Positions 23,205 to 64,000 of a stretch of DNA of 64,000 nucleotides are shown one piece after another; positions within the stretch are counted from its first letter, which is position 1; each line of letters starts with the position of its first letter. The notes beneath the pieces are model-generated. The model was not told the DNA's origin and searched no databases. It worked only from the letters and a program-made list of their open reading frames with translations. The stretch is from Salvelinus alpinus (Eukaryota > Chordata > Actinopteri > Salmoniformes > Salmonidae). The stretch lies in contig NC_092091.1 in NCBI RefSeq assembly GCF_045679555.1, positions 84,511,657 to 84,575,656 of the forward strand. The letters are read 5' to 3'. The position numbers and the translations under genes are program-made.

Positions 23205-23320
23205 ATGAAGGGGAGAGGAAGGAGGAGAGGAGAGGGAGGAGAGAGGAGAGAGAGAAGAGGAGGATGGGAGAGGAGAGGAGAGAGGAGAGGAGAGGAGAGG
23301 AGAGGAGGATGGGAGAAAGG
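23205..23320. repeat. Purine-rich GGAGA microsatellite
   Basis: GAGGAGAGGAGAGG-type run. Its inverted counterpart is the CTCCTCTCC and CCCTCT tract at 50535-50620. Confidence 0.85.
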
Positions 23321-23930
23321 GAGAGGAGGTACTGTTTGTCTCCCACCGTTCCACTCAGAGGACTCTACCTTCTGTTATCAAGTGGCCGTTTCCACTATAT
23401 TTAGTTTACCAGTCATTTCAGTGAAGGGAACAAGTGCACACTTTAGGAGAAAGGAGAGATAATTGGTGCAATGCTTCTTTCTAGTCTACAGTCCTGCGTC
23501 TGTGTCACCAGATTATCACCTAGTGGCCATAAGAGGAACTGTCCTGTCAGTGTGTTTTTACTGCTGGCTCAAAACAACACATGACCTGCATACAGGATAT
23601 GATTCATGTGTGAGTACTAAAAGCATATGAATATAGTATATTATAGTATATTTATTATATATGTGGGTCTGATAAGTAAACACTCTTAATGTTTGCTGTT
23701 TTATCACTCAGAAGAACATTGGGCACTATGTAACCAAACACATGTGAAACCTCATGATATGAGTGATAACAAGTGTTTAAAAAGGTGAGTTCTGCACCCT
23801 GTAGACTACTGCACTACTTCTGAAGAAGACCAGAGTCATTTCAGAACGAAGACTGCTATAGTTCTGACGGTGTTGCTGTTCTGTCTGGGGCCTGGACTCA
23901 GGGAGAGAGTGGAGGGGTGACTAGTAGGTA
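23318..23930. repeat. Inverted repeat arm 1 (upstream of receptor A)
   Basis: The reverse complement of this 613-base block is at about 49931-50545, with only scattered mismatches. Matching landmarks: GTCTCCCACCGTTCCACTCA here against TGAGTGGAACGGTGGGAGAC there, and GAAGAAGACCAGAGTCATTT here against AAATGACTCTGGTCTTCTTC there. No coding content. Confidence 0.92.
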
Positions 23931-27920: not shown

Positions 27921-27924
27921 ATCA

Positions 27925-31399: not shown

Positions 31400-31554
31400 A
31401 GTCAGATGTGAAGGAGGAGGTTGATCATCAGGAGTCAGATGTGAAGGAGGCGGTTGATCATCAGGAGTCAGATGTGAAGGAGGAGGTTGATCATCAGGAG
31501 TCAGATGTGAAGGAGGAGGTTGATCATCAGGAGTCAGATGTGAAGGAGGAGGTT
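31400..31554. repeat. 33-bp minisatellite joined to truncated Tc1 (B)
   Basis: Nearly five units; open frame ESDVKEEVDHQ repeated and continuing into DGHISELYFLEKSPLV of the Tc1 piece before a stop. Confidence 0.9.
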
Positions 31555-32390
31555 GATGGCCACATCAGTGAATTGTACTTTTTGGAGAAAAGTCCTCTGG
31601 TCTGATGAAACAAATATAGAACTGTTTGGCAATAATGACCATCGTTATGTTTGGAAGAAAAAGGGGGAGGCTTGCAAGCCAAAGCTCACCATCCCAACTG
31701 TGAAGCATGGTGGTGGCAGCATCATGTTTGTGGGGGTGTTTTGCTGCAGGAGAGACTAGTGCACTTCACAAATTAGATGGCATCATGAGGTGGGGAAATT
31801 ATGTGGATATATTGAAGCAAAATCTCAAGACATCAGTCAGGAAGTTAAAGCTTGGTCGCAAATGGGTCTTCCAAATGGACAATGACGCCAAGCATACTTC
31901 CAAAGTTGTGGCAAAATGGCTTAAGGACAACAAAGTCAAGGTATTGGAGTGGCCCTCACAAAGCCCTGACCTCAATCGTATAGAAAATGTGTGGACAGAA
32001 ATGAAAAAGCGTGTGCGAGCAAGGAGGCCTACAAACCTGACACAGTTACACCAGCTCTGTCAGGAGGAATGGGCCAAAATGCACCCAACTTATTGTGGGA
32101 AGCTTGTGGAAGGCTACCTGAAACGTTTGACACAAGTTAAACAATTTAAAGGCGATGCTACCAAATACTAATTGAGTGTATGTAAACTTCTGACCCACTG
32201 GGAATTTGATGATGTAAAAGCTGAAATAAATCATTCTCTCTACCATTATTTTGACATTTCACATTCTTAAATTAAAGTGGTGATCCTAACTGACCTAAGA
32301 CAGGGAATTTTTACTAGGATTAAATGTCAGGAATTGTGATGAGATTAAATGTATTTGGCTAAGGTGTATGTAAACTTTTGACTTCAACTG
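31555..32390 (+). mobile_element. 5'-truncated Tc1 transposon in zinc-finger intron B
   Basis: Copy of 2884-3716. C-terminal transposase frame 31707-32171 with MDNDAKHTS (Pro changed to Ala) and SQSPDLNRIENVW. Frameshifted before HGGGSIM, so inactive. Ends ACTTCAACTG and TA. Confidence 0.88.
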
Positions 32391-36345: not shown

Positions 36346-36514
36346 GCTAATCCAACAATATTGCTAGGTTCCTGCACACTTGAATTAAAGGGGAACTACT
36401 CTCAAAAATGTAAATTTCTTAGATTTTCCCCAAACCTCAAAAGTGGTCTCCTGATTGGTTTAAATATTGTTATGGACTTAGAACAATTGCATTGTTTTTC
36501 TGTAAAAAAAAAGT

Positions 36515-38748: not shown

Positions 38749-38835
38749 TAATTCATACTGTATATATATTCATATATTCATACTGTGTTGTAGTCTGTCT
38801 AAGAGGGGAATCACAGAAGACTGACAGCCTGTAAT

Positions 38836-38841
38836 TTTATT
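38836..38841 (-). terminator. Candidate poly(A) signal of receptor gene B
   Basis: Minus-strand AATAAA, conserved with 10949-10954, about 1.4 kb past the unit B stop codon. Confidence 0.4.
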
Positions 38842-39124
38842 AAAAGCATTCAGTTGATTACATGGCAGTTTAGAGAGCAACATCATAACAATAATCTACA
38901 TCATAATCAATAATCAATATAACATTTATAATCAATAACATCATTATCTATATACTACTAACAACATCATAACAATAATCTACATCATAATCAATATCAT
39001 AACATTTATAAACAATAACATCATGAGAGGTAAACAACAACAACAAACACCTTTATTAAAAAATGTTTCAAAATACAAAGAATGAACAGATGATTATAAT
39101 ACATGAACTAATAATGGAGACACT

Positions 39125-39668
39125 TCAAGATAAAGAATCTAAGAGACACTAAATAAGATAAAGAATCTAAGAGACACTAAATAAGATAAAGAATCTAAGA
39201 GACACTAAATAAGATAAAGAATCTAAGAGACACTAAATAAGATAAAGATTCTAAGAGACACTAAATAAGATAAAGAATCTAAGAGACACTAAATAAGATA
39301 AAGAATCTAAGAGACACTAAATAAGATAAAGAATCTAAGAGACACTAAATAAGATAAAGATTCTAAGAGACACTAAATAAGATAAAGAATCTAAGAGACA
39401 CTAAATAAGATAAAGATTCTAAGAGACACTAAATAAGATAAAGAATCTAAGAGACACTAAATAAGATAAAGAATCTAAGAGACACTAAATAAGATAAAGA
39501 ATCTAAGAGACACTAAATAAGATAAAGAATTTAAGAGACACTAAATAAGATAAAGAATCTAAGAGACACTAAATAAGATAAAGAATCTAAGAGACACTAA
39601 ATAAGATAAAGAATCTAAGAGACACTAAATAAGATAAAGAATCTAAGAGACACTAAATAAGATAAAGA
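39125..39668. repeat. 28-bp minisatellite, about 19 copies (B)
   Basis: Expanded form of the 11270-11628 array, with AAAGATTCT variants seen only here. Confidence 0.95.
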
Positions 39669-39744
39669 CATGAAGACAAAAGCAAAAAGTAATAAAAAAG
39701 TAATACAGACGTAATTAATCAAATTAATTAAATTATTCAAAACG

Positions 39745-40030
39745 CCAAGTTACCCAGAACCCCATGTTACCCAGAACCCCATGTTACCCAAAACCCCATG
39801 TTACCCAGAACCCCAATGTTACCCAGAACCCCAATGTTACCCAAAACCCCAATGTTACCCAAAACCCCATGTTCCCCAAAACCCCATGTTACCCAAAACC
39901 CCATGTTACCCAGAACCCATGTTACCCAAACCCCATGTTACCCAAAACCCCATGTTACCCAAAACCCATGTTACTCAAAACCCATGTTACCCAAAACCCC
40001 ATGTTACCCAGAACCCCATGTTTCTCTGGT
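39745..40030. repeat. 17-bp CCCCATGTTACCCAAAA minisatellite (B)
   Basis: About 17 copies; shorter than the unit A array, with CCCCAATGTTACC variants. Confidence 0.95.
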
Positions 40031-40247
40031 GGTAAAAACCAAACTAAAAGGAATAATGGTGGTTGCAGTCACTCCTTTTAGATTTCTTCCAAGGTTCTAG
40101 AAAGATAAACTAATTCTGGACTTGTTATTAAAATTAGAACCACTTCAGGTTTGTCACCACATTTTAAACACCAGTCCACTGCTGACCATCGATTTAAAAC
40201 ACAAAACTGACCTAAGATCAGCATGTAGGGTCAGCTTCATTCTACTC

Positions 40248-40382
40248 CTACTCCGTCCCCTGGGCTGCTCTCTCCTCTCCCGGTCCAGCTTCAGCTCTGG
40301 AGCTCAGAGAGACCATCTCCATGGCATTGACATCAAGATCCATGCTGCTCACCCTGTTCACTCTCTTCTGCCTCCTGGTGGG
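40248..40382 (-). CDS. Receptor B cytoplasmic tail exon and stop
   Basis: Same 45-codon exon as 12425-12559, ending AAQGTE and TAG. Confidence 0.75.
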   Translation of the reverse strand, partial: PTRRQKRVNRVSSMDLDVNAMEMVSLSSRAEAGPGEERAAQGTE

Positions 40383-43300
40383 CTAGGGAGACACAGCACC
40401 AACAGTCAGACATTTACTCTCTAGTATCTCCATTCTCTCTCCCTCCCTCTCCCCCTCCCCCTCACCCTCTAGTTTAAATGACTTGTAACGTCTGAGTAAA
40501 TGTCTTTACCTTGTAGTACAGGTAGGAGGTGGTGATGGCTGTCAGTAGGAGCAGCAGCACTACAACGTGTCTGATGATGAAGGCTGGCAGAGGAGAGGCT
40601 GCCAACAGAAACACCTTTGATGAGGGGACTGATCATCATCACATAGATCTGTGGGAAATCTGTCAATGACAAAGTTATAAGTCTGGTTCATGTTCAGTTA
40701 CCTGTGATGGTGAGGGAGAGGAGCTCACTCTCAGAGGAGAAGTTATGAGAGAAAACATAATTGTCATAAACACAGCTGTAGTTCCCTTGGTGGGAGTCAT
40801 CTGCAGCAGGGAAGAGGAAGGCAGCAGAGTGATTGACAGCTGGCTGGGTCTGGGTTCTGTTGGAGCCGGTGAACGTGAGGAGGAAGGAGCCTCCTGGGTA
40901 CTGTGGCTGAGTGGAGCAGGTGATGGTGAAGCTGTAGCCCCTGAACACCTCGGGCCCCTGGTGGCCCCTGGAGACCCCTCCCATTGAGTCAGTCAGGGAG
41001 ATATCAGGCTGAACCAGGTGATCTGTAACAAATCAAATCAAAGTTTATTTGTCAGGCGCACCGAATAGAACAGGTGTAGACCTGACAGTGAAATGCTTAT
41101 TTACAGGCCCTAACCAACAGTGCAATTTTTAAGTAAATAATAGATATTATGTGAACAATAGATTAGTAAGGGGAAAAAACAACAGTAAAAAGACAGTGAA
41201 TAATAGTGAGGCTATATACAGTAGTGAGGCTATATACAGTAGAGAGGCTATATACAGTAGAGAGGCTATATACAGTAGAGAGGCTATATACAGTAGAGAG
41301 GCTATATACAGTGGCAAGGCTATATATAGTAGTGAGGCTATATACAGTAGAGAGGCTATATATAGTAGTGAGGCTATATACAGTAGTGAGGCTATATACA
41401 GTAGAGAGGTTATATACAGTAGAGAGGCTATATACAGTGGCGAGGCTATATACAGTAGAGAGGCTATATACAGTAGTGAGGCTATATACAGTAGAGAGGC
41501 TATATACAGTAGTGAGGCTATATACAGTAGAGAGGCTATATACGGTAGAGAGGCTATATACAGTAGAGGTTAAATACAGTAGGGAGGCTATGTCAGTAGC
41601 GAGGCTATATACAGTAGAGAGGCTATATACAGTAGGGAGGCGATAACAGTAGCGAGGCTATATACAGTAGAGAGGCTGTATACAGTAGAGAGGCTATACA
41701 CAGTAGTGAGGCTATATACAGTAGAGAGGCTATACACAGTAGTGAGGCTATATACAGTAGTGAGGCTATATACAGTAGAGAGGCTATATACAGTAGGGAG
41801 GCTATAACAGTAGCGTGGCTATATACAGCAGAGAGGCTATATACAGTAGTGAGACTATACACAGTAGAGAGACGATAGACAGTAGAGATTTTATATACAG
41901 TAGAGAGGCTATATACAGTAGTGAGGCTATATACAGTAGAGAGGCTATATACAGTAGTGAGGCTATATACAGTAGTGAGGCTATATACAGTAGTGAGGCG
42001 ATATACAGTAGAGAGGCTATATACAGTAGTGAGGCTATATACAGTAGTGAGGCGATATACAGTAGAGAGGCTATATACAGTAGTGAGGCTATATACAGTA
42101 GTGAGGCTATATACAGTAGAGAGGCTATATACAGTAGTGAGGCCATATACAGTAGAGAGGCTATATACAGTAGTAAGGCTATATACAGTTGAGAGGCTAT
42201 ATACAGTAGAGAGGCTATATACAGTAGAGAGGCTATATACAGTAGAGAGGCTATATAGAGTAGTGAGGCTATATACAGTAGAGAGGCTATATGTAGAGAG
42301 GCTATATATAGTAGTGAGGCTATATACAGTAGAGAGGCTATATACAGTAGAGAGGCTATATACAGTAGAGAGGCTATATACAGTAGCGAGGCTATATACA
42401 GGCACTGGTTAGTCGGGCTAATTGAGGTTGTATGTGCAAGAATGTATGTTGAGGACCAGGGGGTGCTATTTTCACTTTTGGGGAAAATCGTATGATTTTT
42501 AAACGGCCTCGTACTCAATTCTTGCTTGTACAATATGCATATTATTATTACTATTGGATAGAAAACAGTCTCTAGTTTCTAAAAACGTTTGAATTATTTC
42601 TCTAAGTGAAACAGAACTCTTTTTACAGACCATTTCCTAACCGGAAGTGAGATTTCCAAAAGCGAAGTCTCTCTTTAAGAGCTTGTCTATAAAAGGGCAT
42701 GTCACTTATGACTGTAGAAACACGTCATACGCCTTCCCCTGGGTGTCATGCGGAAGTGAGAAAAGAAATCACTTGATTATCTCGTCCTGGGATTGAACAC
42801 AACCTCTTGGACTGAGACGTGCGCACTTTATATTTTTTCCTGGAAGCGAAGTTGGACCTGTACTCGGCTCATGGAAGAACCTTGTTAAAGGTGAATATGA
42901 TCTCTGGCTTCGATTTTATTTGATACATGTCACAATATCATCCTAAAGTATGTTTTTTCAATATAGTTTAATTATATTATTGAATTTTATTCTGGACTTT
43001 AGACGTGATGCGACGCAAGATTTGGTTCAAGAATGAGAGGTTAGCATCGCACGGCCAGTGTGCTTGCTAATTCAAGAGGGAAATCGTTCGTTCTGGATCG
43101 AAATAAAGACGTTTCTGAACAAAGGACCCCTTGGAGAACATTCTGATGGGAGATCAACAAAGATAAGGACCCAATTTGGGATGCTTTTTCATATATCTGT
43201 CGAACTGTGCTATGCTACCGTTTGACTAGAATCAATGCTGCTGTGTGCTAGCTATTGTAGTAAGCTAATATAACGATATATTGTGTTTTCGCTGTAAAAC

Positions 43301-46300: not shown

Positions 46301-48848
46301 GGATATTCGTGTTCGTACGTCGTCTAATTTTTTGTCCCGTGATTGTATGTTGGCGAATAATATTAACGGTAACGGGAGCTTTCCCACTCGCCTTCTGCGG
46401 ATCCTTACGAGTTACCTCGGTGTCCTCTGTACCTGCGTCTCTTTCTATTGCCAATAATGGGGATGTCGGCCTTGTCGGGTGTTGCAGTATATCCTGTGCT
46501 TTCTGCTTGTTGAAGAAAAAATCTCAGTCTAATCAGAGATGAGTGATCGCTGTCCTGATGTCCAGAAGATCTTTCTTGCCGTAAGAGATGGTGGCAGAAA
46601 CATTATGTACAAAGTAAGTTACAAATAACAAAAACACCCCCTCATAAGAGTACAACTGGTTAGTCGCCCGTAAAACTGCTGCCATGTCTTCAGGCGCCAT
46701 TATATTTTATAACAACAAAAGAGAAGAAGAAAAACTTCTTCAACTAGTTTCCTATAGATATGACAATAACATCAGCATGTAACAGTGCTAGCCACCCTCC
46801 CTCACAGGGCAACATGAGTAGTGGGCCTACAGTCACTGAGACAACATATGTTGAAAGCAGGCTTAAGCAGGACATCTGGAACAAGAGTAGAGAAAAAGAT
46901 AACGTAGCTCCTCAACTACTTTCCTCATTTAGATATGACAATAACATGACATGTGACAGTGGTAGTGAGTAGAGACGTTCACTGAGATGACACTCAAATA
47001 CAAAAGCATTCTGGGATATTTCAGTTGTATTTGATTCCTTCTTGACTGAGTGATCTATTTTGCAAAGCAGACAGACAATCTATAAGTCAGATAATTGTAT
47101 GAATGAAGGAAATCAGTTGAATATAATTATAATATGTTGTTATTACCTGAGCAGATCACTGTGAGTCCAGGAAGGAGATCATAACTTCGGGAACACTCCC
47201 TCAGTGAAGACTCAGACCCAAAACAGGAAACTCCAAACCCTCTAGTGGTGTTTCCAGGAAGTACTGAAACAGTGGAGCCACAACCCAGCTGTCTACACAC
47301 TACTGCAGCTATATCCTCCTGGTACCAGATATCAACTCCCACAATCCTCCACTCTCCCTGGTCGTACCACTCCACTCCACCAGCACAGCGACTGCCTCCT
47401 CCCACCAGCCTCACATCATCAGGCTCTGAGAAAAGAAAAGAGAGAGACAGTAATCTTACTATTTTCTCAATAAAACACACCTATAGTGTCTCTCATATGC
47501 TTCACTCCGGGTGAGAAACAATGTTGATTGAGTGACAAACTGTTTCTTACCTGAGCAGGTGAGTCCAACAGCATTACCAGGTAGGCAGGTGTTGTGTTTT
47601 CTGTCTGAGGTGTCACAGTCCAGGAGAAGGGACTCTTTGCCTTTACACTGGAACTCTTTATCCCAGGTCTGACCCTCACCTCCTCCATAGAGCCCCCCCT
47701 GTAGAGCTGCAGGAGCCCCACAGCCAAGCTCCCCACAGACTACCTCTGCATCCTGCCGGTCAAAGTCAGCTTCACACACTGAGGCCCAGGACTGATTGGA
47801 CTTCACCTCCACTCTCCCAGAGCAGAGACCAGCTCCATCCACAAGCCGCACAGACTCTGGAGAAAAAGAGTTGGTTGAACATTCAATCAGTTTTGTTGAT
47901 GACACTGTCAAGGACTAAACACAAATATGTTGGATAAAAGATTGTAGTTTGCTATGTTTGATACTGTAAGAGGTAGAAATGGGTTCTTAGTCACTCAGGA
48001 TCAGGTTGGGAATAATGCAGGCAGGAGACAGGAATAAGTTCACTTCACTTTATAGAAAATAAACAGCTGGACATCCATCAGGCAGCTTCACTTCAGTACC
48101 ATCTGAACTACAATGATCTGCCCATGAACATCTCCCATAAACCAATATGACAAACACAAATATAATGTTTAAATACATCTGACATCTCTCCCTCTATTTA
48201 AATGAAATAAAAACACATAAAACATGATACATGGTAATATTGTATAATGTACAAATACATCTCTCAATATGACCAGTCTCTTACCTGAACAGGTCACACG
48301 ATGATAATATCCACCATCACAGACACCAAGTTCTTCTATGATGTCACACTGTCGAATAGAAGACTCATGTCCATCACAACTTAGTGTGACTCCTCTTCTT
48401 CCCTCTTCAACCAGAGGTCCTCTAGATTCAGCTACAGGATTCCCACAGTCCAACTCTCTACACACAACCTTAGTCTCTATCATTCTCCACCACCTAGAAC
48501 ATAGACCTGACCACTCTCCTCTGTAGAAGACTTCCACTGTCCCAGAACAGGAAGTGGTTCCATCCACCAGTCTGACTGAGAGTTCAGCTGTAAACAGCAG
48601 AGAGGAAAACACAGTGGTGAGGACAGATGATGACAGTGATTCTGTTATTCTAACAGCAGTAATGATTTGTGGTTGACAAGTATTAGTAGTTCCATAAAAC
48701 ACTACTAGTAATTTGGTTTTAGAATGGTTTGTATGGACACATGAATTTCTCCGTGTGGGATAATAAAGTTGACTAATATTGAACTGCTATAATCACTGTA
48801 GATTTATACTCTACCTACCTGGTGGACTGACACTTTGAGCCTGGAAAT
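40248..48848 (-). CDS. SRCR-Ig receptor gene, unit B, lacking a 5' end
   Basis: Exons on the minus strand: linker 48848-48819; SRCR 48587-48285 (eight Cys), 47856-47551 (eight Cys), 47425-47147 (six Cys); Ig 41022-40702; transmembrane 40598-40510; tail 40382-40248. All are open, with AG/GT borders and phase 1 joins, and the SRCR set has no frameshift. There is one SRCR set where unit A has two. No signal exon or promoter lies upstream: beyond the purine array come a Tc1 piece and an inverted block. The gene is therefore either a 5'-truncated pseudogene or the 3' half of a longer transcript starting in unit C/D. The intron before the Ig exon holds a 5.7-kb LINE. Confidence 0.7.
40510..40598 (-). 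CDS. Receptor B transmembrane exon
   Basis: 89 bases, same hydrophobic helix ([13 protein letters not shown]) as unit A. Confidence 0.8.
40702..41022 (-). CDS. Receptor B Ig-like domain exon
   Basis: 321 bases, intact, differing from unit A at a handful of residues (SHNFSSES for [14 protein letters not shown] for LLVQPD at the start). Its acceptor is followed on the + strand within 7 bases by the tail of the LINE at 41032. Confidence 0.85.
41205..42400. repeat. 18-bp tandem array in LINE 3' UTR, about 66 copies
   Basis: Unit GAGGCTATATACAGTAGA or ...GTAGT. The element family appears to carry a short version (ACTATATACAG also occurs in the 8978 fragment), here greatly expanded. The period of 18 gives false open frames on both strands, up to 260 codons. 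Confidence 0.95.
42453..43893. mobile_element. TTAA-type non-autonomous element nested in LINE
   Basis: Related to 9467-10883 and closer to 52665-53890: GGGGGTGCTATTTTCACTTT start, TATGCATATTATTATTACTA, CGCTGTAAAACA, and a GCTAGCGGAACGGG end followed by TTAA at 43894. The left flank is TTGA, probably a mutated TTAA. No protein coding. Confidence 0.7.
47147..47425 (-). CDS. SRCR exon, six-cysteine type (B)
   Basis: 279 bases, phase 1-1. [10 protein letters not shown] start and VICSG end. A segment after WRIVG reads [13 protein letters not shown] where the other copies have SFSDV(T/K)AVAAVV, one codon longer. This is the most divergent stretch among the four copies and could reflect gene conversion or selection. 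Confidence 0.83.
47551..47856 (-). CDS. SRCR exon, eight-cysteine type, middle (B)
   Basis: 306 bases, intact; almost identical to 19610-19915 (CLPGNAVGL for CLPDNAVGL). Confidence 0.85.
48285..48587 (-). CDS. SRCR exon, eight-cysteine type, first (B)
   Basis: 303 bases. [16 protein letters not shown] start, [18 protein letters not shown] in the middle, RVTCSG end; eight cysteines. More diverged from its paralogs than the middle exon. Confidence 0.83.
48819..48848 (-). CDS. 10-residue linker exon (B)
   Basis: 30 bases, phase 1-1, [10 protein letters not shown]. Directly preceded (5') by the 36-bp array. Confidence 0.65.
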
Positions 48849-49220: not shown

Positions 49221-49299
49221 GAACATCAACATGACCTTTCATGATGTGATGGGAAGACAGGCTTATCGTTGGTATGGTGCAACAACACACATGTGTACA

Positions 49300-49690
49300 T
49301 ACACTATATATACAAAAGTATGTGGACACCCCTTCAAATTGTGTGGTAAAACTTCACAAAGCCCTGACCTCAACTCCATCGAACACCTTTGGGATGAATT
49401 GGAACGCCGACTTCGAGTCAGGTCGAATCGCCCGACCTCACTAATGCTCTTGTGGCTGAATGGAAGCAAGTCCCTGCAGCAATGTTCCAACATCTAGTGG
49501 AAAACCTTCCCAGAAGAGTGGAGGCTGTTATAGCAGCAATGTTCCAACATCTAGTGGAAAGCCTTCCCAGAAGACTGGAGGCTGTTATAGCAGAAAGGGG
49601 GGACCAACTCCATATTAATACCCATGATTTTGTATTGAGATGTTTGAACAGCAGGTGTCCACAAACTTTTGGTGATTTAGTGTATATTCT
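49300..49690 (+). mobile_element. Internally deleted Tc1 with transposase C-terminus
   Basis: Left terminus ACAAAAGTATGTGGACACCC, then a jump to ACTTCACAAAGCCCTGACCT, reading SPDLNSIEHLWDELERRLR, the third catalytic region. It continues to the right terminus near GATTTAGTGTA. A 54-base part around CAATGTTCCAACATCTAGTG is tandemly doubled (49480 and 49536). It has no N-terminal half. Confidence 0.82.
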
Positions 49691-49710
49691 GCAGCTGGCT
49701 GGCTGGCTGG

Positions 49711-49715
49711 CTGGC

Positions 49716-49808
<93 letters not shown>
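49711..49808. repeat. (GACA)n microsatellite
   Basis: Perfect tetranucleotide run next to the Tc1 right end. Longer at 63255-63391. Confidence 0.96.
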
Positions 49809-49810
<2 letters not shown>

Positions 49811-49985
49811 ACTACTAGTCACCCCTCCACTCTCTCCCTGAGTCCATGCCCTAGACAGACAGACAGACCTACTAGTCACCCCTCCACTCTCTCCCTGAGT
49901 CCAGGCCCCAGACAGACAGACAGACAGAACTACTAGTCACCCCTCCACTCTCTCCCCGAGTCCAGGCCCCAGACAGACAGAACAG
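49809..49985. repeat. Composite minisatellite ACTACTAGTCACCCCTCC with GACA spacers, 3 copies
   Basis: About 47 bases (ending GTCCAGGCCCCAGACAG) plus a variable GACA run. Its inverse is a single copy at 23885-23932. The large version is at 63391-64000. Confidence 0.93.
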
Positions 49986-50545
49986 CAACACCGTCAGAAC
50001 TATAGCAGTCTTCATTCTGAAATGACTCTGGTCTTCTTCAGAAGTAGTGCAGTAGTCTACAGGGTTCAGAACTCACCTTTTTAAACACTTCTTATCACTC
50101 ACATCATGAGGTTTCACATGTGTTTGGTTACATAGTGTCCAATGTTCTTCTGAGTGATAAAACAGCAAACATTAAGAGTGTTTACTTATCAGACCCACAT
50201 ATATAATAAATATACTATAATATACTATCTTCATATGCTTTTAGTACTCACACATGAATCATATCCTGTTTGGAGGTCATGTGTTGTTTTGAGCCAGCAG
50301 TAAAAACACACTGACAGGACAGTTCCTCTTATGGCCACTAGGTGGTAATCTGGTGTCACAGACGCAGGACTGAAGACTAAAGAGAAGCATTGTCTCAATT
50401 ATCTCTCCTTTCTCCTAAAGTGTACACTTGTTCCCTTCCCTTCACTGAAATGACTGGTACACTAAATATGGTGGAAACGCCCACTTGATAACAGAAAGTA
50501 GAGTCCTCTGAGTGGAACGGTGGGAGACAAACAGTACCTCCTCTC
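49931..50545. repeat. Inverted repeat arm 2
   Basis: Reverse complement of 23318-23930. In unit A this block lies about 650 bases upstream of the receptor signal exon; here it lies between receptor exons B and C in the opposite orientation. Confidence 0.92.
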
Positions 50546-50627
50546 CCCTTCTCCTCCTCTCCTATCCTATCCTCAACCCTCTCCCTCTCCCTCTCCCTCT
50601 CCCTCTCCCTCTCCCTAAGCTATACAG

Positions 50628-50655
50628 TCATCGTGAGAGGCTGGTAAAGGAGAGG
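50628..50655 (-). pseudogene. Cut-off transmembrane exon (C)
   Basis: The acceptor side of the transmembrane exon (minus strand TTTGTAG then CCTCTCCTTTACCAGCCT) is present and then changes abruptly to unrelated sequence near 50640. The membrane helix and tail exons are missing for this unit. Confidence 0.7.
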
Positions 50656-50758
50656 CTACAAACAGAAACACCTTTGATGAGGGGACTGATCATCATCACA
50701 TAGATCTGTGGGAAATCTGTCAATGACAAAGTTATAAGTCTGGTTCATGTTCAGTTAC

Positions 50759-51079
50759 CTGTGATGGTGAGGGAGAGGAGCTCACTCTCAGAGGAGAAGT
50801 TATGAGAGAAAACATAACTGTCATAAACACAGCTGTAGTTCCCTTGGTGGGAGTCATCTGCAGCAGGGAAGAGGAAGGCAGCAGAGTGATTGACAGCTGG
50901 CTGGGTCTGGGTTCTGTTGGAGCCGGTGAACGTGAGGAGGAAGGAGCCTCCTGGGTACTGTGGCTGAGTGGAGCAGGTGATGGTGAAGCTGTAGCCCCTG
51001 AACACCTCGGGCCCCTGGTGGCCCCTGGAGACCCCTCCCATTGAGTCAGTCAGGGAGATATCAGGCTGGACCAGGAGAT
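50759..51079 (-). CDS. Ig-like domain exon of unit C
   Basis: 321 bases, open, AG/GT borders, [20 protein letters not shown]. With no transmembrane exon of its own, it could end a truncated gene or splice on (phase 1) to the unit B linker exon at 48848. Confidence 0.82.
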
Positions 51080-51907: not shown

Positions 51908-52428
51908 TGTCAGGATTTGGCCAGGATTGTTCAGGTTTTGGTCACTAGATGCCCCCATTGTGCTTTTTTGACTCATTTGTTTTTTCCCTTGTTCCAGTTA
52001 TTATTTGCACCTGTGCCTCATTTCCCTTGAAAGTATTTAAACCCTTAGTGTTCCTCAGTTCTTTGCTCTGTGTTTGTATGTTAGCACCCAGCCCCAGCCA
52101 TGCTGTGAACTTTTGTTTCTCCAGTTGGATTTTCTTGAGGTACTCTGGTTTTGTTCTTGTTTATTTTTGATTATTCTTTTGAGGTTTGTTTTTCCCTGCT
52201 GTTCTTACCAGTTTGTGGATTTTCCTTGTGTCTTGGAGGATATACATTTGTTCTCTTGGAATTACTTTTGACGTTGTGGATTTATATTCCTTTTTACTTT
52301 ATTAAATCACCGTCTCAAGTACTGCTGTGTCTGCCTCATCTTCTGGGTTCTGCCGACTATTAATGGCTCAGTTTACTAAGTGACTGTTTCTCACACCGGA
52401 GACCCGAGTTCGTAACCGGGTCCTGACA
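51908..52428 (+). repeat. 5' LTR of the chromovirus fossil
   Basis: 521 bases, TG...CA ends. Pairs with 60212-60732. Confidence 0.93.
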
Positions 52429-52664
52429 GAAACACAGAGCCAACAAAATGAACCCAGAGGCAGCCAGTACCCAGGACCTTTTTTCCATGCTGTCCCACCA
52501 CGAGGGGACTGTCCAACGCCACGAAGCTGCTCTGAGGCCTTAATGGGTAGACATTCTCAACTTCTGTCGTAGATGCTGACTTCCATAAAGCAGATATCTA
52601 ATCGACTTCCCCCGGCAACCGCTCCTGCCCCAGTACATCAGATTCAAGTGCCCGTGGCAGTTAA

Positions 52665-53890
52665 CCTTTTGTCAATCTAGGGGGTGCTGTTTCCACTTTG
52701 GAAAATATTGTTACCAAATTAAACTGCTTCATACTCAATTCTTGCTCGTACAATATGCATATTATTATTACTATTGGATAGAAAACACTCTCTAGTTTCT
52801 AAAACTGTTTGAATTATTTCTCTGAGTGAAACAGAAGTCATTCTGCAGCTCACTTCCTGTCAAGAAGTGAGATTTCTGAAATTGAGGTCTCTGTTCCAGG
52901 GTCGGTTTATAAATTCCCTTATAAGGTATGGGGCTACATGCACTGCATACGCCTTCCCCTAGATGTCAGTAAGCGGTGAGACTTTGAATGGAGCGGATAG
53001 CACCATCTGGGGGAGTATAAAACCTCTTGGAACGGAAGTATCGACCTTTTCGACGAGGCGCCTGACGCAGCAGGGACACCGGCATGGCTTCTTCAAAAGC
53101 TTTCGGTTTAGCAGTTCTTTATCTCCGGCTCTGATTTCATTTGTTTTTTGTCTTAAAAACTTCATAAGGTAGTTAATTTAAACCGACTTATAGCAGTTTA
53201 TTGCGATTTTCCTGGATTTCTTTGTGACGCGCTTTCACGAGTTGGACACCTCTCCAGTGGGTGGCTATCGTTGGCTGCTATTTCGACAGGACAAGAGGAC
53301 ATCTTTCAACCCAAAGACGATTGTTCTGGAGAAAGGACACCTTGCCCAAGATTCTGATGGAAGCTCAGCTAATAGTAAGCAGTCTTTATGCTGTTAATTC
53401 GTACTTATGTTGACAAATGTCAAATAATAATTCCGCCATGAATTATGGTGCGGTCTCGCTTTAGCGCACGCTGTATTGCGCAGTAACGTTAATTTTAAAA
53501 ATCTAACACAGCGGTTGCATTAAGAACTAATTTATCTTTCATTTGCTGTCCAACTTGTATTTTCTAGTCAAGTTTATGAATAGTTTTCGATTAGAATAGG
53601 TGCTTCTCCAAGATGGCGCCGGGCAGGTTGCTCTAAGTTTTGGCCACTATTCTCATTGTATAACCACGATTTGTGCCGCTAAATATGCACATTTTCGAAC
53701 AAACTCTATATGCATTGTGTAATATGATGTTATAGGATTGTCATCTGAAGAATTCTGAGAAGGTTAGTGAAAAAATTAATATCTTTTGGTGGCTTATACT
53801 TATCGCTATGTTTTTGCTTGAATCAATGCTGTTGTGATGTTTGCTATTGTGGTAAGCTAATATAACGTTATAATGTGTTTTCGCTGTAAA
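52665..53890. mobile_element. TTAA-type non-autonomous element, cut by LINE
   Basis: TTAA at 52661-52664, then CCTTTTGTCAATCTAGGGGG. Matches 42453-43893 through TATGCATATTATTATTACTA and TTTTCGCTGTAAAA, where the LINE tail starts. Its right end is not seen on the far side of the LINE. Confidence 0.72.
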
Positions 53891-54127
53891 ATCAAATCAA
53901 ATAAAGTTTATTTTATATAGCCCTTCGTACATCAGCTAATATCTCGAAGTGCTGTACAGACACCCAGCCTAAAACCCCAAACAGCAAGCAATGCAGGTGT
54001 AGAAGCACGGTGGCTAGGAAAAACTCCCTAGAAAGGCCAAAACCTAGGAAGAAACCTAGAGAGGAACCAGGCTATGAGGGGTGGCCAGTCCTCTTCTGGC
54101 TGTGCCGGGTGGAGATTATAACAGAAC

Positions 54128-54985
54128 ATGGCCAAGATGTTCAAAATGTTCATAAGTGACAAGCATGGTCAAATAATAATCATGAATAATTTTCAGTTGG
54201 CTTTTCATAGCCGATCATCAAGAGTTGAAAATAGCAGGTCCAGGACAGGTGGCGGTTCCATAACCGCAGGCAGAACAGCTGAAACTGGAATAGCAGCAAG
54301 GCCAGGTGGACTGGGGACAGCAAGGAGCCATCACGCCCGGCAGCCCCGACGCACGGTCCCAGGGCTCAGGTCCTCCGAGAGAGAGAAAGAAAGAGAGAAG
54401 GAGAGAATTAGAGAGAGCCAAGATTTTCAAAATGTTCATAAATGACAAGCATGGTCAAATAATAATCAGGAATAAATGTCAGTTGGCTTTTCATAGCCGA
54501 TCATTAAGAATTGAAAACAGCAGGTCTGGGACAGGTAGGGGTTCCATAACCGCAGGCAGAACAGTTGAAACTGGAATAGCAGCAGGGCCAGGCGGACTGG
54601 GGACAGCAAGGAGTCATCATGCCCGGTAGTCCTGACGTATGGTCCTAGGGCTCCGGTCCTCCGAGAGAGAGAAAGAAAGAGAGAAGGAGAGAATTAGAGA
54701 GAGCCAAGATTTTCAAAATGTTCATAAATGACAAGCATGGTCAAATAATAATCAGGAATAAAAGTCAGTTGGCTTTTCATAGCCGATCATTAAGAGTTGA
54801 ACAGGTAGGGGTTCCATAACAGCAGGCAGAACAGTTGAAACTGGAACAGCAGCAAGGCCAGGTGGACTGGGGACAGCAAGGAGTCATCATGCCCGGTTTG
54901 CCGTGACGTATGGTCCTAGGGCTCAGGTTCTCCGAGAGAGAGAAAGAAAGAGAGAACGAGAGAATTAGAGAGAGCATACTTAAAT
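54128..54985. repeat. ~290-bp tandem triplication in LINE 3' UTR
   Basis: Three successive units, each with TTCAAAATGTTCATAA, GACAAGCATGGTCAAATAAT, TTGGCTTTTCATAGCCGATC and a terminal GAGAGAGAAAGAAAGAGAGA run. Units two and three are closer to each other than to unit one. Confidence 0.9.
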
Positions 54986-55524
54986 TCACACAGGACACTG
55001 GATAAGATAGGAGAAGTACTCCAGGTATAACCAACTGACCCTAGCCCCCCGACACATAAACTACTGCAGCATAAATACTGGAGGCTGAGACAGGAGGGGT
55101 CAGGAGACACTGTGGCCCCATCCGATGATACCCCCGGACAGGGCCAAACAGGAAGGATATAACCCCACCCACTCTGCCAAAGCACAGCCCCCACACCACT
55201 AGAGGGATATCTTCAACCACCAACTTACAATCCTGAGACAAGGCCGAGTATAGCCCACAAAGATCTCCACCACAGCACAAACCAAGGGGGGGGCGCCAAC
55301 CCAGACAGGAAGATCACGTCAGTAACTCAACCCACTCAAGTGACGCACCCCTCCTAGGGACGGCATGAAAGAGCACCAGTAAGCCAGTGACTCAGCCCCT
55401 GTAATAGGGTTAGGGGCAGAGAATCCCAGTGGAGAGAGGGGAACCGGCCAGGCAGAGACAGCAAGGGCGGTTCGTTGCTCCAGAGCCTTTCCGTTCACCT
55501 TCACACTCCTGGGCCAGACTACAC

Positions 55525-56751
55525 TCAATCATATGACCTACTGAAGAGATAAGTCTTCAGTAAAGACTTAAAGGTTGAGACCGAGTCTGCGTCTCTCACA
55601 TGGGTAGGCAGACTATTCCATAAAAATGGAGATCTATAGGAGAAAGCCCTGCCTCCCGCTGTTTGCTTAGAAATTCTAGGGACAATTAGGAGGCCTGCGT
55701 CTTGTGACCGTAGCGTACGTGTAGGTATGTACGGCAGGACCAACTCGGAAAGATAGGTAGGAGCAAGCCCATGTAACGCTTTATAGGTTAACAGTAAAAC
55801 CTTGAAATCAGCCCTTGCCTTAACAGGAAGCCAGTGTAGGGAGGCTAGCACTGGAGTAATATGATCAAATTTCTTGGTTCTAGTCAGGATTCTAGCAGCC
55901 GTATTTAGCACTAACTGAAGTTTATTTAGTGCTTTATCCGGGTAGCCGGAAAGTAGAGCATTGCAGTAGTCTAACCTAGAAGTAACAAATGCATGGATAA
56001 ATTTTTCTGCATCATTTTTGGACAGAAAATTTCTGGTTTTTGCAATGTTACGTAGATGGAAAAAAGCTGTCCTTGAAACAGTCTTGATATGTTCGTCAAA
56101 AGAGAGATCAGGGTCAAGAGTAACGCCGAGGTCCTTCACAGTTTTATTTGAGACGACTTTACAACCATCAAGATTAATTGTCAGATTTAACAGAAGATCT
56201 CTTTGTTTCTTGGGACCTAGAACAAGCATCTCTGTTTTGTCCGAGTTTAAAAGTAGAAAGTTTGCAGCCATCCACTTCCTTATGTCTGAAACACAGGCTT
56301 CTAGCGAGGGCAATTTTGAGGCTTCACCATGTTTCATTGAAATGTACAGCTGTGTGTCATCCGCATAGCAGTGAAAGTTAACATTATGTTTTCGAACAAC
56401 ATCCCCAAGAGGTAAAATATATAGTGAAAACAATAGTGGTCCTAAAACAGAACCTTGAGGAACACCGAAATGTACAGTTGATTTGTCAGAGGACAAACCA
56501 TTCACAGAGACAAACTGATATCTTTCCGACAGGTAAGATCTAAACCAGGCCAGAACTTGTCCGTGTAGACCAATTTGGGTTTCCAGTCTCTCCAAAAGAA
56601 TGTGGTGATCGATGGTGTCAAAGGCAGCACTAAGGTCTAGTAGCACGAGGACAGATGCAGAGCCTCGGTCTGACGCCATTAAAAGGTCATTTACCACCTT
56701 CACAAGTGCAGTCTCAGTGCTATGATGGGGTCTAAAACCAGACTGAAGCAT
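55525..56751 (-). CDS. LINE ORF2, reverse transcriptase part (408 codons)
   Basis: Non-LTR reverse transcriptase, which copies the element RNA at a nicked target. Visible blocks: [35 protein letters not shown] (first catalytic Asp), [27 protein letters not shown] (the YADD active site), [11 protein letters not shown], and a C-terminal [16 protein letters not shown] region. It ends after FSRSYD. The first part of RT lies in the preceding frame; the two are separated by one short out-of-frame loss near 56,760-56,800, so the protein is not continuous. Confidence 0.88.
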
Positions 56752-56771
56752 TTCGTATACATTGTTTGTCT

Positions 56772-58577
56772 TCAGGAAGGCAGTGAGTTGCTGTGCAGGA
56801 ATGGAAGATTCGATATAGGCCGATAGTTTTTTATATTTTCCGGGTCAAGGTTTGGCTTTTTCAAGAGAGGCTTTATTACTGCCACTTTTAGTGAGTTTGG
56901 TACACATCCGGTGGATAGAGAGCCGTTTATTATGTTCAACATATGCGGGCCAAGCACAGGAAGCAGCTCTTTCAGTAGTTTAGTAGGAATAGGATCCAGT
57001 ATGCAGCTAGAAGGTTTAGAGGCCATGATTATTTTCATCATTGTGTCAAGAGATATAGTACTAAAACACTTGAGTGTCTCCCTTGATCCTAGGTCCTGGC
57101 AGAGTTGTGCAGACTCAGGACAATTGAGCTTTGGAGGAATACGCAGATTTAAAGAGGAGTCCATAATTTGCTTTCTAATGATCATTAACTTTTCCTCAAA
57201 GAAGTTCATGAATTTATTACTGCTGAAGTGAAAGCCATCCTCTCTTGGGGAATGCTGCTTTTTAGTTAGCTTTGCAACAGTATCAAAAAGAAATTTTGGA
57301 TTGTTCTTATTTTCCTCAATTAAGTTGGAAAAGTAGGATGATCGAGCAGCAGTGAGGGCTCTTCGGTACTGCACGGTACTGTCTTTCCAAGCTAGTCGGA
57401 AGACTTCCAGTTTGGTGTGGCGCCATTTCCGTTCCAATTTTCTGGAAGCTTGCTTCAAAGCTCGGGTATTTTCTGTATACCAGGGAGCTAGTTTCTTATG
57501 ACAAATGTTTTTCGTTTTTAGGGGTGCAACTGCATCTAGGGTATTGCGCAAGGTTAAATTGAGTTCCTCAGTTAGGTGGTTAACTGATTTTTGTCCTCTG
57601 ACGTCCATGGGTAGGCAGAAGGAGTCTGGAAGGGCATCAAGGAATATTTGTGTTGTCTGAGAATTTATAGCACGACTTTTGATGCTCCTTGGTTGGGGTC
57701 TGAGCAGATTATTTGTTGCGATTGCAAACGTAATAAAATGGTGGTCCGACAGTCCAGGATTATGAGGAAAAACATTAAGATCTACAACATTTATTCCATG
57801 GGACAAAACTAAGTCCAGAGTATGACTGTGGCAGTGAGTAGGTCCAGAGACATGTTGGACAAAACCCACTGAGTCGATGATGGCTCCGAAAGACTTTTGG
57901 AGTGGGTCTGTGGACTTCTCCATATGAATATTAAAATCACCAAAAATTAGAATATGATCTGCTATGACTACAAGGTCTGATAGGAATTCAGGGAACTCAG
58001 AGAGGACCGCTGTATATGGCCCAGGAGGCCTATAAACAGTGGCTATAAAAAGTGATTGAGTAGGCTGCATAGATTTCATGACTAGAAGCTCAAAAGACGA
58101 AAACGTCATTTTTTTTTTTGTAAATTGAAATTTGCTATCGTAAATGTTAGCAACACCTCCGCCTTTGCGGGATGCACGGGGGATATGGTCACTAGTGTAA
58201 CCAGGAGGTGAGGCCTCATTTAACACAGTAAATTCATCAGGCTTAAGCCATGTTTCAGTCAGGCCAATCACATCAAGATTATGATCAGTGATTAGTTCAT
58301 TGACTATAACTGCCTTTGAAGTGAGGGATCTAACATTAAGTAACCCTATTTTGAGATGTGAGGTATCACAATCTCTTTCAATAATGGCAGGAATGGAAGA
58401 GGTCTTTATCCTAATGAGATTGCTAAGGCGAACACCGCCATGTTTAGTTTTGCCCAACCTAGGTCGAGGCACAGACACAGTCTCAATGGGGATGGCTGAG
58501 CTGACTACACTGACTGTGCTATTGGCAGACTCCACTAAGCTGGCAGGTTGGCTAACAGCCTGCTGCCTGGCCTGCAC
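56772..58577 (-). CDS. LINE ORF2, endonuclease and start of RT (601 codons)
   Basis: APE-type endonuclease: [29 protein letters not shown] with the catalytic Glu, [20 protein letters not shown], and [10 protein letters not shown] at the end (the SDH motif). The linker to RT and the first RT block ([20 protein letters not shown]) follow, after which the frame is lost. EN motifs look intact. Confidence 0.88.
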
Positions 58578-58583
58578 CCTATT

Positions 58584-59579
58584 TCATTGTGGAGCTAGTG
58601 GAGTTAGAGCCCTATCTATGTTTGTAGATAAGATGAGAGCACCCCTCCAGCTAGGATGGAGTCCGTCACTCCTCAGCAGGTCAGGCTTGGTCCTGTTTGT
58701 GGGTGAGTCCCAGAAAGAGGGCCAATTATCTACAAATTCTATCTTTTGGGAGGGGCAGAAAACAGTTTTCAACCAGCGATTGAGTTGTGAGACTCTGCTG
58801 TAGAGCTCGTCACTCCCCCTAACTGGGAGAGGGCCAGAGACAATTACTCGATGCCGACACATCTTTCTAGCTGATTTACAGGCTGAAGCTATGTTGCGCT
58901 TGGTGACCTCTGACTGTTTCATCCTAACATCGTTGGTGCCGACGTGGATAACAATATCTCTATACTCTCTACACTCGCCAGTTTTAGCTTTAGCCAGCAC
59001 CATCTTCAGATTAGCCTTAACGTCGGTAGCCCTGCCCCCTGGTAAACAGTGTATGATCGCTGGGTGATTCGTTTTAAGTCTAATACTGCGGGTAATGGAG
59101 TCGCCAATGACTAGGGTTTTCAATTTGTCAGAGCTAATGGTGGGAGCCTTCGGCGTCTCAGACCCCGTAACGGGAGGAGTAGAGACAAGAGAAGACTCGG
59201 CCTCAGACTCCGACTCGCTACTCAATGGGGAAAACCGGTTGAAAGTTTCTGTCGGCTGAATGAGCGACACCGGTTGAGCATTCCAACAACATTTCCCTCC
59301 AGAAGCCATGAGAAAATTGTCCGGCTGCGGGGACAGTGCGGGGGGATTTATAATAACGTTACTATCTGTACTTACTGGTGGCACAGACGCTGTTTCACCC
59401 TTTCCTACACTGAAATTACCCTTGCCTAACGATTGCGTCTGAAGCTGGGCTTGCAGCACAGCTATCCTCGCCGTTAGGCGATCATTCTCCTGTATATTAT
59501 GAGTACAGCGAATGCAGTTAGAAGACATCATGTTAAAGTTACTACTTAGCTTCGGCTGTTGAAGGTGCTGAAGAACCAT
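58584..59579 (-). CDS. LINE ORF1 with SGNH esterase domain (331 codons)
   Basis: N-terminal CIRCTHNIQENDRLTARIAV (short CxxC plus coiled-coil-like stretch), a Ser/Pro-rich spacer, then an SGNH hydrolase fold: LVIGDSITRS (nucleophile Ser), GGRATD, VGTNDVRM, and SDGLHPSWRG with the Asp/His pair, about residues 155-325. Such esterase domains are known in ORF1 of CR1/L2 elements, where the role is thought to be RNA or membrane binding. Open from Met to stop. Five bases separate its stop from the ORF2 frame. Confidence 0.88.
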   Translation of the reverse strand: MVLQHLQQPKLSSNFNMMSSNCIRCTHNIQENDRLTARIAVLQAQLQTQSLGKGNFSVGKGETASVPPVSTDSNVIINPPALSPQPDNFLMASGGKCCWNAQPVSLIQPTETFNRFSPLSSESESEAESSLVSTPPVTGSETPKAPTISSDKLKTLVIGDSITRSIRLKTNHPAIIHCLPGGRATDVKANLKMVLAKAKTGECREYRDIVIHVGTNDVRMKQSEVTKRNIASACKSARKMCRHRVIVSGPLPVRGSDELYSRVSQLNRWLKTVFCPSQKIEFVDNWPSFWDSPTNRTKPDLLRSDGLHPSWRGALILSTNIDRALTPLAPQ

Positions 59580-60211
59580 GTCCAGATAAAGCGTCCGGAG
59601 TGAAAAAGTTGAATGAGGGAAAAAAGTTGTGATGGAAAAACTAAAAGTATAAACGTAAAGTTGTCAGCTAGCAAAGCAAAGCTAGCAAAGTAAAGTTGGC
59701 AACAAAACGCACAGCAACACGTCTGCAAATTCAAAAGTCTTAATCTTCTGCGTTCCTCACAGCGGTACCAACGACAAGCCAACAGACGTCGCCGTCCCGG
59801 GCCTACCCTGCGCCTCGGCCAGAGAGTCTGGCTCTCAACAAAGAACTTACCGCTACGGGTGGAGTCTCGCAAGCTGTCCCAGAAATACATCGGTCCCTTT
59901 AAGGTTGCCAGGAGAGTGAATCCCGTTACTTATCGCCTGCACTTACCCAGATCCCTTAAGATTAATCCCACGTTTCACATTTCTTTATTAAAACCTGTTG
60001 TTTTTTCTCCCCTTATCCCGGCAGGCAGACCTCCTCCTCCGGGTGCAGCGGTCCTGGCAGTATCTGGTGGACTGGGAAGGCTACGGTTCCGAGGAGCGCT
60101 CCTGGGTTCCTGCCAAAGACATACTGGACCCTGACCTCATTCGTCAGTTCAGGGTCCTCCACCCTGAGAAGGCTGGTAGGAACATCAGGAGCCGTTCCTA
60201 GGGGAGGCTTC

Positions 60212-60732
60212 TGTCAGGATTTGGCCAGGATTGTTCAGGTTTTGGTCACTAGATGCCCCCATTGTGCTTTTTTGACTCTTTTGTTTTTTCCCTTGTTCCG
60301 GTTATTATTTGCACCTGTGCCTCATTTCCCTTGAGTGTATTTAAACCCTTAGTGTTCCTCAGTTCTTTGCTCTGTGTTTGTATGTTAGCACCCAGCCCCA
60401 GCCATGCTGTGAACTTTTGTTTCTCCAGTTGGATTTTCTTGAGGTACTCTGGTTTTGTTCTTGTTTATTTTTGATTATTCTTTTGAGGTTTGTTTTTCCC
60501 TGCTGTTCTTACCACTTTGTGGATTTTCCTTGTGTCTTGGAGGATATACATTTTTTCTCTTGGAATTACTTTTGACGTTGTGGATTTATATTCCTTTTTA
60601 CTTTATTAAATCACCGTCTCAAGTACTGCTGTGTCTGCCTCATCTTCTGGGTTCTGCCGACTATTAATGGCTCAGTTTACTAAGTGACTGTTTCTCACAC
60701 CGGAGACCGGAGTTCGTAACCGGGTCCTGACA
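60212..60732 (+). repeat. 3' LTR of the chromovirus fossil
   Basis: 521 bases, preceded by a purine-rich GGGGAGG tract, the usual polypurine primer site. Confidence 0.93.
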
Positions 60733-60971: not shown

Positions 60972-62679
60972 CTGAGCAGATCACTGTGAGTCCAGCAAGG
61001 AGATCATAGCTTCTGTAACACTCCCTCAGTGAAGACTCAGACCCAGAACAGATAACTCCAAACCCTCTAGTGGTGTTTCCAGGTAGTATTGAAACAGTGG
61101 AGCCACAACCCAGCTGTCTACACACTACTGCAGCTATAGCCTTCACGTCAGAGAGAGCTCCCACAGTCCTCCACTCTCCCTGGTCGTACCACTCCACTCC
61201 ACCAGCACAGCGACTGCCTCCTCCCACCAGCCTCACATCATCAGGCTCTGAGAAAAGAAAAGAGAGACACAGTAATCTTACTATTTTCTCACTAAAACAC
61301 ACCTATATTGTCTCTCATATTCTTCACTCCAGGTGAGAAACAATGTTGATTGAGTGACAAACTGTTTCTTACCTGAGCAGGTGAGTCCAACAGCATTACC
61401 AGGTAGGCAGATGTTGTGTTTTCTGTCTGATGTGTCACAGTCCAGGAGAATGGACTCTTTGCCTTTACACTGGAACTCTTTATCCCAGGTCTGACCCTCA
61501 CCTCCTCCATAGAGCCCCCCCTGTAGAGCTGCAGGAGCCCCACAGCCAAGCTCCCCACAGACTACCTCTGCATCCTGCCGGTCAAAGTCAGCTTCACACA
61601 CTGAGGCCCAGGACTGATTGGACTTCACCTCCACTCTCCCAGAGCAGAGACCAGCTCCATCCACAAGCCGCACAGACTCTGGAGAAAAAGAGTTGGTTGA
61701 ACATTCAATCAGTTTTGTTGATGACACTGTCAAGGACTAAACACAAATATGTTGGATAAAAGATTGTAGTTTGCTATGTTTGATACTGTAAGAGGTAGAA
61801 ATGGGTTCTTAGTCACTCAGGATCGGGTTGGGAATAATGCAGGCAGGAGACAGGAATAAGTTCACTTCACTTTATAGAAAATAAACAGCTGGACATCCAT
61901 CAGGCAGCTTCACTTCAGTACCATCTGAACTACAATGATCTGCCCATGAACATCTCCCATAAACCAATATGACAAACACAAATATAATGTTTAAACACAT
62001 CTGACATATCTCCCTCTCTTTAAATGAAATAAAAACACATAAAACATGATACATGATAATAATGTATAATGTACAAATAAATCTCGCAATATGACCAGTC
62101 TCTTACCTGAACAGATCACATGAAGATAATATTCACCAAAACAGTAACCAGGTCCTCCTCTGATGTCACACTGTCTAAAAAATGACTCATGTCCACTACA
62201 ACTATAAAGAAAGAATCCTCTTCTTCTTCCATCCTTAACCAGAGGTCCAATAGATTCAGCTTCAGGATTCCCACAGTCCAGCTGTCTACACACAACCTTG
62301 GCCTCTTTCATTATGCTCCACCAACTAGGACATAGACCCAACCACTCTCCTCTGTAGAAGACTTCCACTGTCCCAGAACAGGAAGTGGTCCCATCCACCA
62401 GTCTGACTGAGTATTCAGCTGTAAACAGCAGAGAGGAAAACACAGTGGTGAGGACAGATGATGACAGTGATTCTGTTATTCTAACAGCAGTAATGCTTTG
62501 TGGTTGACAAGTATTAGTAGTTCCATTAAACACTACTTGTTATTGGGTTTTAGAATGGTTTGTATGGACACATGAATTTCTCCATGTGGGATAATAAAGT
62601 TGACCAATATTGAACTGCTATAATCACTGTAGATTTATACTCTACCTACCTGGTGGACTGACGCTTTGAGCCTGGAGAT
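60972..62679 (-). CDS. SRCR exon set of receptor unit C/D
   Basis: Linker 62679-62650 ([10 protein letters not shown]), SRCR 62418-62107 (312 bases, eight Cys, the longest version of the first domain with extra residues around SWWSIMKEAKVVC and GRRRGFFLYSC), SRCR 61678-61373 (306, eight Cys) and SRCR 61247-60972 (276, six Cys). All are open with canonical borders and phase 1 joins. The next exon in the direction of transcription is the Ig exon at 51079, across an intron of about 9.9 kb made mostly of the LTR fossil and LINE. A signal exon, if present, lies to the right of the window. Confidence 0.8.
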
Positions 62680-63065: not shown

Positions 63066-63226
63066 CAAGTCCCAGCAGCAATGTTCCAACATCTAGTGGA
63101 AAACCTTCCCAGAAGACTGGAGGCTGTTATAGCAGAAAGGGGGGACCAACTCCATATTAATACCCATGATTTTGTATTGAGATGTTTGAACAGCAGGTGT
63201 CCACAAACTTTTGGTGATTTAGTGTA
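63066..63226 (+). mobile_element. Tc1 right-end remnant (D)
   Basis: CAGCAATGTTCCAACATCTA to GATTTAGTGTA, matching the last part of 49300-49690. Confidence 0.75.
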
Positions 63227-63254
63227 TATTCTGCAGCTGGCTGGCTGGCTGGCT

Positions 63255-64000
<746 letters not shown>

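Follow-up and report, generated by a model that had tools for sequence, protein, structure and literature searches.

Can two neighbouring receptor genes that each look broken be parts of a single gene? The question is raised by a 64-kb stretch of chromosome C6 (C6:84511657-84575656, hereafter the window), where the receptor genes lie on the minus strand and share a basic unit made of a short leader, three SRCR exons (z, y and x), an Ig exon, a transmembrane (TM) exon and a tail exon. Gene A starts with a leader and continues with two sets of z-y-x, in one of which y has lost 1 bp, before Ig, TM and tail. B consists of z-y-x, Ig, TM and tail, D of a z-y-x set, and unit C of one Ig exon plus a TM exon that is cut (Table 1). 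The arrangement is that expected of a fusion of tandem paralogues, with an upstream unit lacking a 3′ end and a downstream unit lacking a 5′ end on the same strand. A sequence-only reading had ascribed the missing leader of B and the missing anchor of C to one inversion. The present analysis suggests instead that D, C and B probably constitute one longer, still readable receptor gene.

Table 1. Coordinates of the features discussed, in window positions unless a C6 position is given.
Feature	Position	Strand	Basis or remark
Usual leader exon of gene A	22629..22671	-	
Block copy at A, common head-to-head arrangement; ORF with ACG for ATG, minus 4 bp	23248..23927	+	
Cytoplasmic exon of B, with stop	40248..40382	-	
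Intact TM exon of B	40510..40598	-	
Ig exon of B	40702..41022	-	
SRCR exon x of B	47147..47425	-	
SRCR exon y of B	47551..47856	-	
SRCR exon z of B	48285..48587	-	
Intron 1 of B, including the 5′ end of T1, a Tc1 element	49221..49345	+	
Tc1-type element T2, 3′ part	49346..49686	+	Right flank resembles T2's block-side flank in 12 other loci
Spacer between Tc1 and block: GGCT/GACA array plus 61-nt minisatellite copies	49687..49929	.	
Leader-like ORF MKTAIVLTVLLFCLSGAWTR..., candidate first exon of B, weak phase-1 donor from second minisatellite copy	49880..50015	-	
Inverted block: cluster upstream DNA, turned relative to the common arrangement	49930..50613	-	Alignment, genome copies
CCT, then a 21-nt match to the SRCR x - Ig intron (24 nt once the AGG overlap is counted); part of the recurrent TM/intron junction	50614..50637	+	
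5′ remnant (18 nt) of unit C TM exon, acceptor kept, no anchor; ASPLPASHDDCIA then stop	50638..50655	-	
Ig exon of unit C	50759..51079	-	
LTR retroelement within the intron separating x of D from Ig of C; 521-bp direct repeats (98.7%), 6-bp target duplication ATAGTG	51908..60732	+	
SRCR exon x of D	60972..61247	-	
SRCR exon y of D	61373..61678	-	
SRCR exon z of D	62107..62418	-	
D: same Tc1 3′ end, GACA array and minisatellite	63066..64000	+	
Block at D, past window end, oriented as at B	C6:84575669-84576278		

Group B SRCR proteins are characterized by one exon per SRCR domain and by six to eight cysteines per domain. In the window, whole SRCR domains are flanked by splice sites, which predicts one exon per domain, and the domains of gene A contain, by eye, 8 (z), 8 (y) and 6 (x) cysteines. 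The SRCR domain (PF00530) scores above the Pfam cut-off in all six exons of B and D, the SRCR exons to which the scan was applied; the Ig exon of C is likewise above its cut-off. An Rfam search of the window gave no match at the gathering score. In the z and x exons of A, unit 1, B and D, amino-acid-changing differences about equal or exceed the silent ones, as in x of A versus x of D (18 changing and 2 silent, on 206 and 70 sites), while the y and Ig exons are nearly identical among the paralogues, the frameshifted exon y of unit 1 being left out of the counts. Such a pattern would fit receptors under diversifying selection or patchy gene conversion.

Three further features of the window may be mentioned here. 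The y exon with the 1-bp loss belongs to the second set of A (14305-14609), and the frame is kept if it is skipped. Positions 1-13208 and 27861-41031 form a large tandem duplication, ~90-96% identical in its main pieces, which carries the 3′ ends of two receptor genes. The minus strand at 16564-17634 holds an unbroken 356-aa ORF for a Tc1/Sleeping-Beauty-like transposase.

Alignment within the 64-kb window shows that 49930-50613 is the reverse complement of 23248-23927, with 92.9% identity over 691 columns (E=0.0); when most of the CT tract is omitted (49930-50559), 598 of 621 aligned bases are identical (96.3%). The inverted match reported earlier between 49931-50545 and 23318-23930 is thus confirmed and slightly longer. 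To its left the GACA array adjoins, followed by the 3′ end of a Tc1-type element, as had also been described. On the right, the block had been thought to break inside the TM exon of unit C near 50640. The TM exon is indeed cut, at 50638, but the block homology stops at 50613, and the end of the block and the break in the exon are two different junctions. Between them lies CCT followed by AAGCTATACAGTCATCGTGAG, which matches the SRCR-Ig intron of the family at 13570-13593 with 2 mismatches in 24; a match to the 21-mer at ≤3 mismatches was found in 0 of 100 shuffled windows. The block joins DNA 21 bp beyond the TM/intron join. We also considered whether this filler is a templated insertion from nearby. 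A local test did not support this, since 121 of 200 shuffles reached an equally high score; a test over the whole window was positive, with 0 of 60 shuffles as high. The filler matches the SRCR-Ig intron, as described, and belongs to a join that is found elsewhere.

The remnant of the TM exon of C matches the two intact TM exons only from 50638 rightwards, and the window yielded neither a second-half TM exon nor a tail exon for C. A genome search with 50590-50720, in which 40 of 45 candidates were scored, located the TM/intron join at the B/C site and at six other places, the match running from 50617 or 50619 through the TM remnant. The other 33 of the 40 scored matches start only at 50638 and are plain TM starts. 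The additional joins were re-aligned in the fetched loci, and no block was found in their flanks (L032-L036, at least ~1.5 kb on each side). The proposal that a single rearrangement removed both leader and anchor is consequently not supported. Because the join occurs at six places without the block, the TM cut is, judging from these loci, an event separate from the inverted block and, by parsimony, an older one than the joining of the block.

The surroundings of these joins indicate that the TM cut is a recurrent joint able to sit inside longer arrays. Downstream of six of the seven joins, at a distance of 3.1-13.2 kb, the same strand carries a plain TM start; for the seventh (85723996), none of the 33 listed plain TM starts lies within 225 kb downstream. 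At C6:84266868-84286406 (L035/L036), five Ig exons in a run are followed by y-x-Ig-TM on one strand, and a dead TM start with the TM/intron join comes after every Ig exon of the run except the fifth. The nine SRCR and Ig exons of this locus are free of stops, and its final TM exon is open, of a longer variant and provided with a donor; in the 0.3 kb examined past it, no tail exon was found.

The orientation of the block was assessed by a search of the whole 2.37-Gb genome. Among the best 40 of 395 candidates, which were scored, at least 19 full-length copies were found, that of B included, all on chromosome C6. The flanks (10 kb) of 18 other full-length copies and of two partial ones (L027 and L028) were then compared. 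In 18 of these 20 the block stands head-to-head with the DNA upstream of a leader of the MIPAVV type, and in 16 of 20 the leader itself is present; beyond that leader, SRCR exons fall inside the fetched 10 kb at two loci (L022 and A). Only at B and D, among the copies examined, do SRCR exons follow on the other side, in the sense of the block, and the partial copy L027 has neither neighbour. Since 18 of the 20 copies are head-to-head with the leader DNA, B and D are taken to represent the turned state. The claim that the block is inverted at B thus agrees with the majority in the same genome, with the reservation that D is turned as well. The order Tc1 3′ end, array, block is identical at B, at D and at 12 of the 19 other fetched loci, and what changes at B and D is, as far as the flanks indicate, which side of the block faces the SRCR exons.

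Two other arrangements were tried at A. Its decayed ORF, viewed from the window alone, had suggested that A carries the inverted copy, which was rejected because the arrangement at A is the common one genome-wide. A single Tc1 element split by inversion at A was likewise rejected: the A piece and the Tc1 of unit 1 match in only 83 of 99 overlapping bases, and immediately beside that Tc1, unit 1 and A are 96.75% identical.

The comparison with D is informative about the leader. The leaders of the MIPAVV type that were read (n=16, including that of A) are all free of stops, begin with ATG and have their phase-1 donor in one common position. The leader of D, MIPAMKLMIMFWST, lies at C6:84586991-84586949, ~13 kb upstream of its first SRCR exon, and has the usual donor position and a lysine inside the hydrophobic stretch. 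Because D has the same block orientation as B and still possesses a leader of the MIPAVV type, the turned block alone does not remove a leader. We also discarded the idea that the whole leader region at D was simply inverted, as the leader there is further upstream in normal orientation and has not been turned round; up to C6:84601699, the limit of the stretch examined, no block was detected next to it. On whether the turned state of B and D arose once, the evidence is divided: the Tc1 3′ ends of the two, which are identical, favour a single origin, and the block tree opposes it, with the B+D grouping in 0 of 200 bootstrap trees and only one well supported inner branch out of 15.

On this basis, the following scheme is proposed for the formation of a D-C-B gene. 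The first 18 nt of a TM exon would have been joined to an SRCR-Ig intron at the recurrent joint, after which an Ig exon and a dead anchor would be followed by further cassettes, the Ig of unit C being one such internal Ig. In intron 1 of both D and B, the Tc1-array-block unit would have become turned relative to its usual head-to-head position with the MIPAVV leader. At B, the CT-tract end of the block (50613) would then have been joined to the intron piece (50614/50617), with the loss of B's own MIPAVV leader and of anything that once lay between B and C. The resulting minus-strand gene would consist of the leader upstream of D, z-y-x (D), Ig (C), z-y-x (B), Ig, TM and tail. We infer the order of events, as well as a transcript spliced as modelled and skipping the dead TM exon; this exon keeps its acceptor, and its use would give a stop.

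The joined exons of D, C and B encode 896 aa with no internal stop and one hydrophobic segment above threshold, located at the TM. All of them are in phase 1-1 up to the TM, and because such symmetrical phases keep the frame automatically, the 896 open codons are a consistency check and weak evidence of use. Between the TM of B (C6:84552237) and C6:84601699, a single usual-type leader is present, that of D, and no additional full TM exon; among the plain TM starts listed for the same strand, the next is at 84609513. Past the dead TM exon, the sense strand contains no AATAAA or ATTAAA for 4.9 kb. In the two tailed genes such a poly(A) signal follows the stop by 1.2 and 1.5 kb, and the minus strand of the window contains 61 such hexamers in 64 kb. 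The retroelement between D and C is flanked by a matching target duplication (ATAGTG), so the two units were contiguous before its insertion. Inside 51908-60732 there are also ORFs with endonuclease and reverse-transcriptase domains, LINE-like in character.

One counterpoint to the D-C-B fusion comes from the block itself. According to the earlier account, gene B has lost its signal exon. No leader of the MIPAVV type was indeed found between B and C, but within the block, on the strand of B and pointing into B, lies a leader-like ORF, MKTAIVLTVLLFCLSGAWT, with an ATG, a basic start and a hydrophobic core, which could start B by itself. B would then be a gene of its own, with promoter and leader supplied by the inverted block and spliced from 49880 to SRCR z; a phase-1 donor in the second 61-nt minisatellite copy, the strongest available, yields a 522-aa protein without a stop. 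The ATG of this MKTAIV ORF is kept in 19 of the 20 readable copies, the exception being A (21 copies were examined and L021 was left out). The 85 bp at 50016-50100 vary at 3 of 85 sites in 19 copies, compared with 70 of 445 in 50101-50545. These conserved 85 bp, here and in the copies, immediately precede the ORF and could represent either part of a promoter or a conversion tract.

Several observations nevertheless make such a swap of leaders unlikely. The donor scores 1.4, below the 15 other scored donors (3.3-7.0) and the three Ig donors (4.7), on the weight matrix used. The 20 codons tested show no coding signature, with third positions variable in 1/20 versus 1/20 and 4/20 at the other two. 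At the 19 fetched loci besides D, no SRCR or Ig exon follows the MKTAIV ORF in its sense within ~4 kb, and the ORFs of at least 60 aa beyond the block (up to four per locus) are by eye mostly repeats or transposon-like. Shuffled sequences gave a leader-like ORF in 25 of 300 cases and one with a donor in 2 of 300, at thresholds chosen after the candidate had been seen.

It is also conceivable that the two genes are simply broken, B being leaderless and C anchorless, with both of them pseudogenes or C a secreted form. That B has no MIPAVV leader beside it, and that the window contains no intact TM or tail belonging to C, would agree with this, as would the dead TM exon, which runs to a stop. Isoforms of SRCR receptors without the transmembrane region are moreover reported for CD163 and WC1 (PMC2681482). 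Yet D, C and B have open SRCR and Ig exons with canonical splice sites, and the stretch that they form when joined has a leader at one end and TM and tail at the other, which renders decay of both genes quite improbable.

Finally, the two joins specific to B, at ~49345 (T1/T2) and 50613/50617 (block/intron piece), lie inside repeats (Tc1 and CT tract), were each seen once in a single assembly, and are absent from the other fetched loci examined, but an assembly error in this repeat-rich cluster is very improbable, as the window contains no N, the order Tc1 3′ end, array, block recurs in 12 of the 19 fetched loci besides D, and the TM/intron join is present at six other places, so that other parts of this assembly show most of the unusual arrangement again. 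If the block had been turned by recombination between inverted Tc1 copies, a hybrid Tc1 with a homologous crossover point, together with the reciprocal join, would be expected. In the T1/T2 element the 5′ end is joined to a point far inside the element, at positions that by eye do not correspond, for which a later inner deletion could account; at D the MIPAVV leader has kept its orientation.

If the D-C-B gene is real, the locus would illustrate a way in which a fast-changing fish immune-receptor cluster can lengthen its receptors, through the death of internal anchors at a recurrent joint and the merging of neighbouring units with symmetrical exons. A "broken" pair of paralogues may then be one gene, which annotation could split. 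A more far-reaching idea, to which we assign little probability, is that the head-to-head MKTAIV/MIPAVV leader pair and the adjacent Tc1 copies make up a switchable 5′ cassette, in which turning of the block would swap leader and promoter and, together with the dead-TM joins, give receptors of varying length. Among the papers listed by literature searches (at most 15 per list), none, judged by its title and the opening of its abstract, concerned an SRCR-Ig cluster in salmonids.

Among the known systems, WC1 and CD163, which belong to group B SRCR with WC1 forming a multi-gene family, are the closest in organization. They share with the present cluster the one-exon-per-SRCR-domain structure (stated for WC1), a repeated SRCR block, one TM exon and clustered paralogues (PMC2681482), and SRCR cassettes have been described in PMC2906472. 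Among solved structures, exon y of B matches CD163/M130 best. The present cluster differs in that its cassette comprises three SRCR exons and an Ig exon and in that dead TM starts lie between the cassettes. CD6 and CD5L also match exon y of B, with three matched stretches each. These two proteins are not known to have an Ig domain, whereas the present cluster has one between the SRCR domains and the membrane. Fusions of the KIR or haemoglobin Lepore type arise by deletion between tandem paralogues. The proposed D-C-B gene resembles them in combining the 5′ part of one paralogue with the 3′ part of the next while keeping the frame, but an inverted block and an intron piece are found at its join, and the B/C join is therefore unlikely to be the product of a simple unequal crossover.
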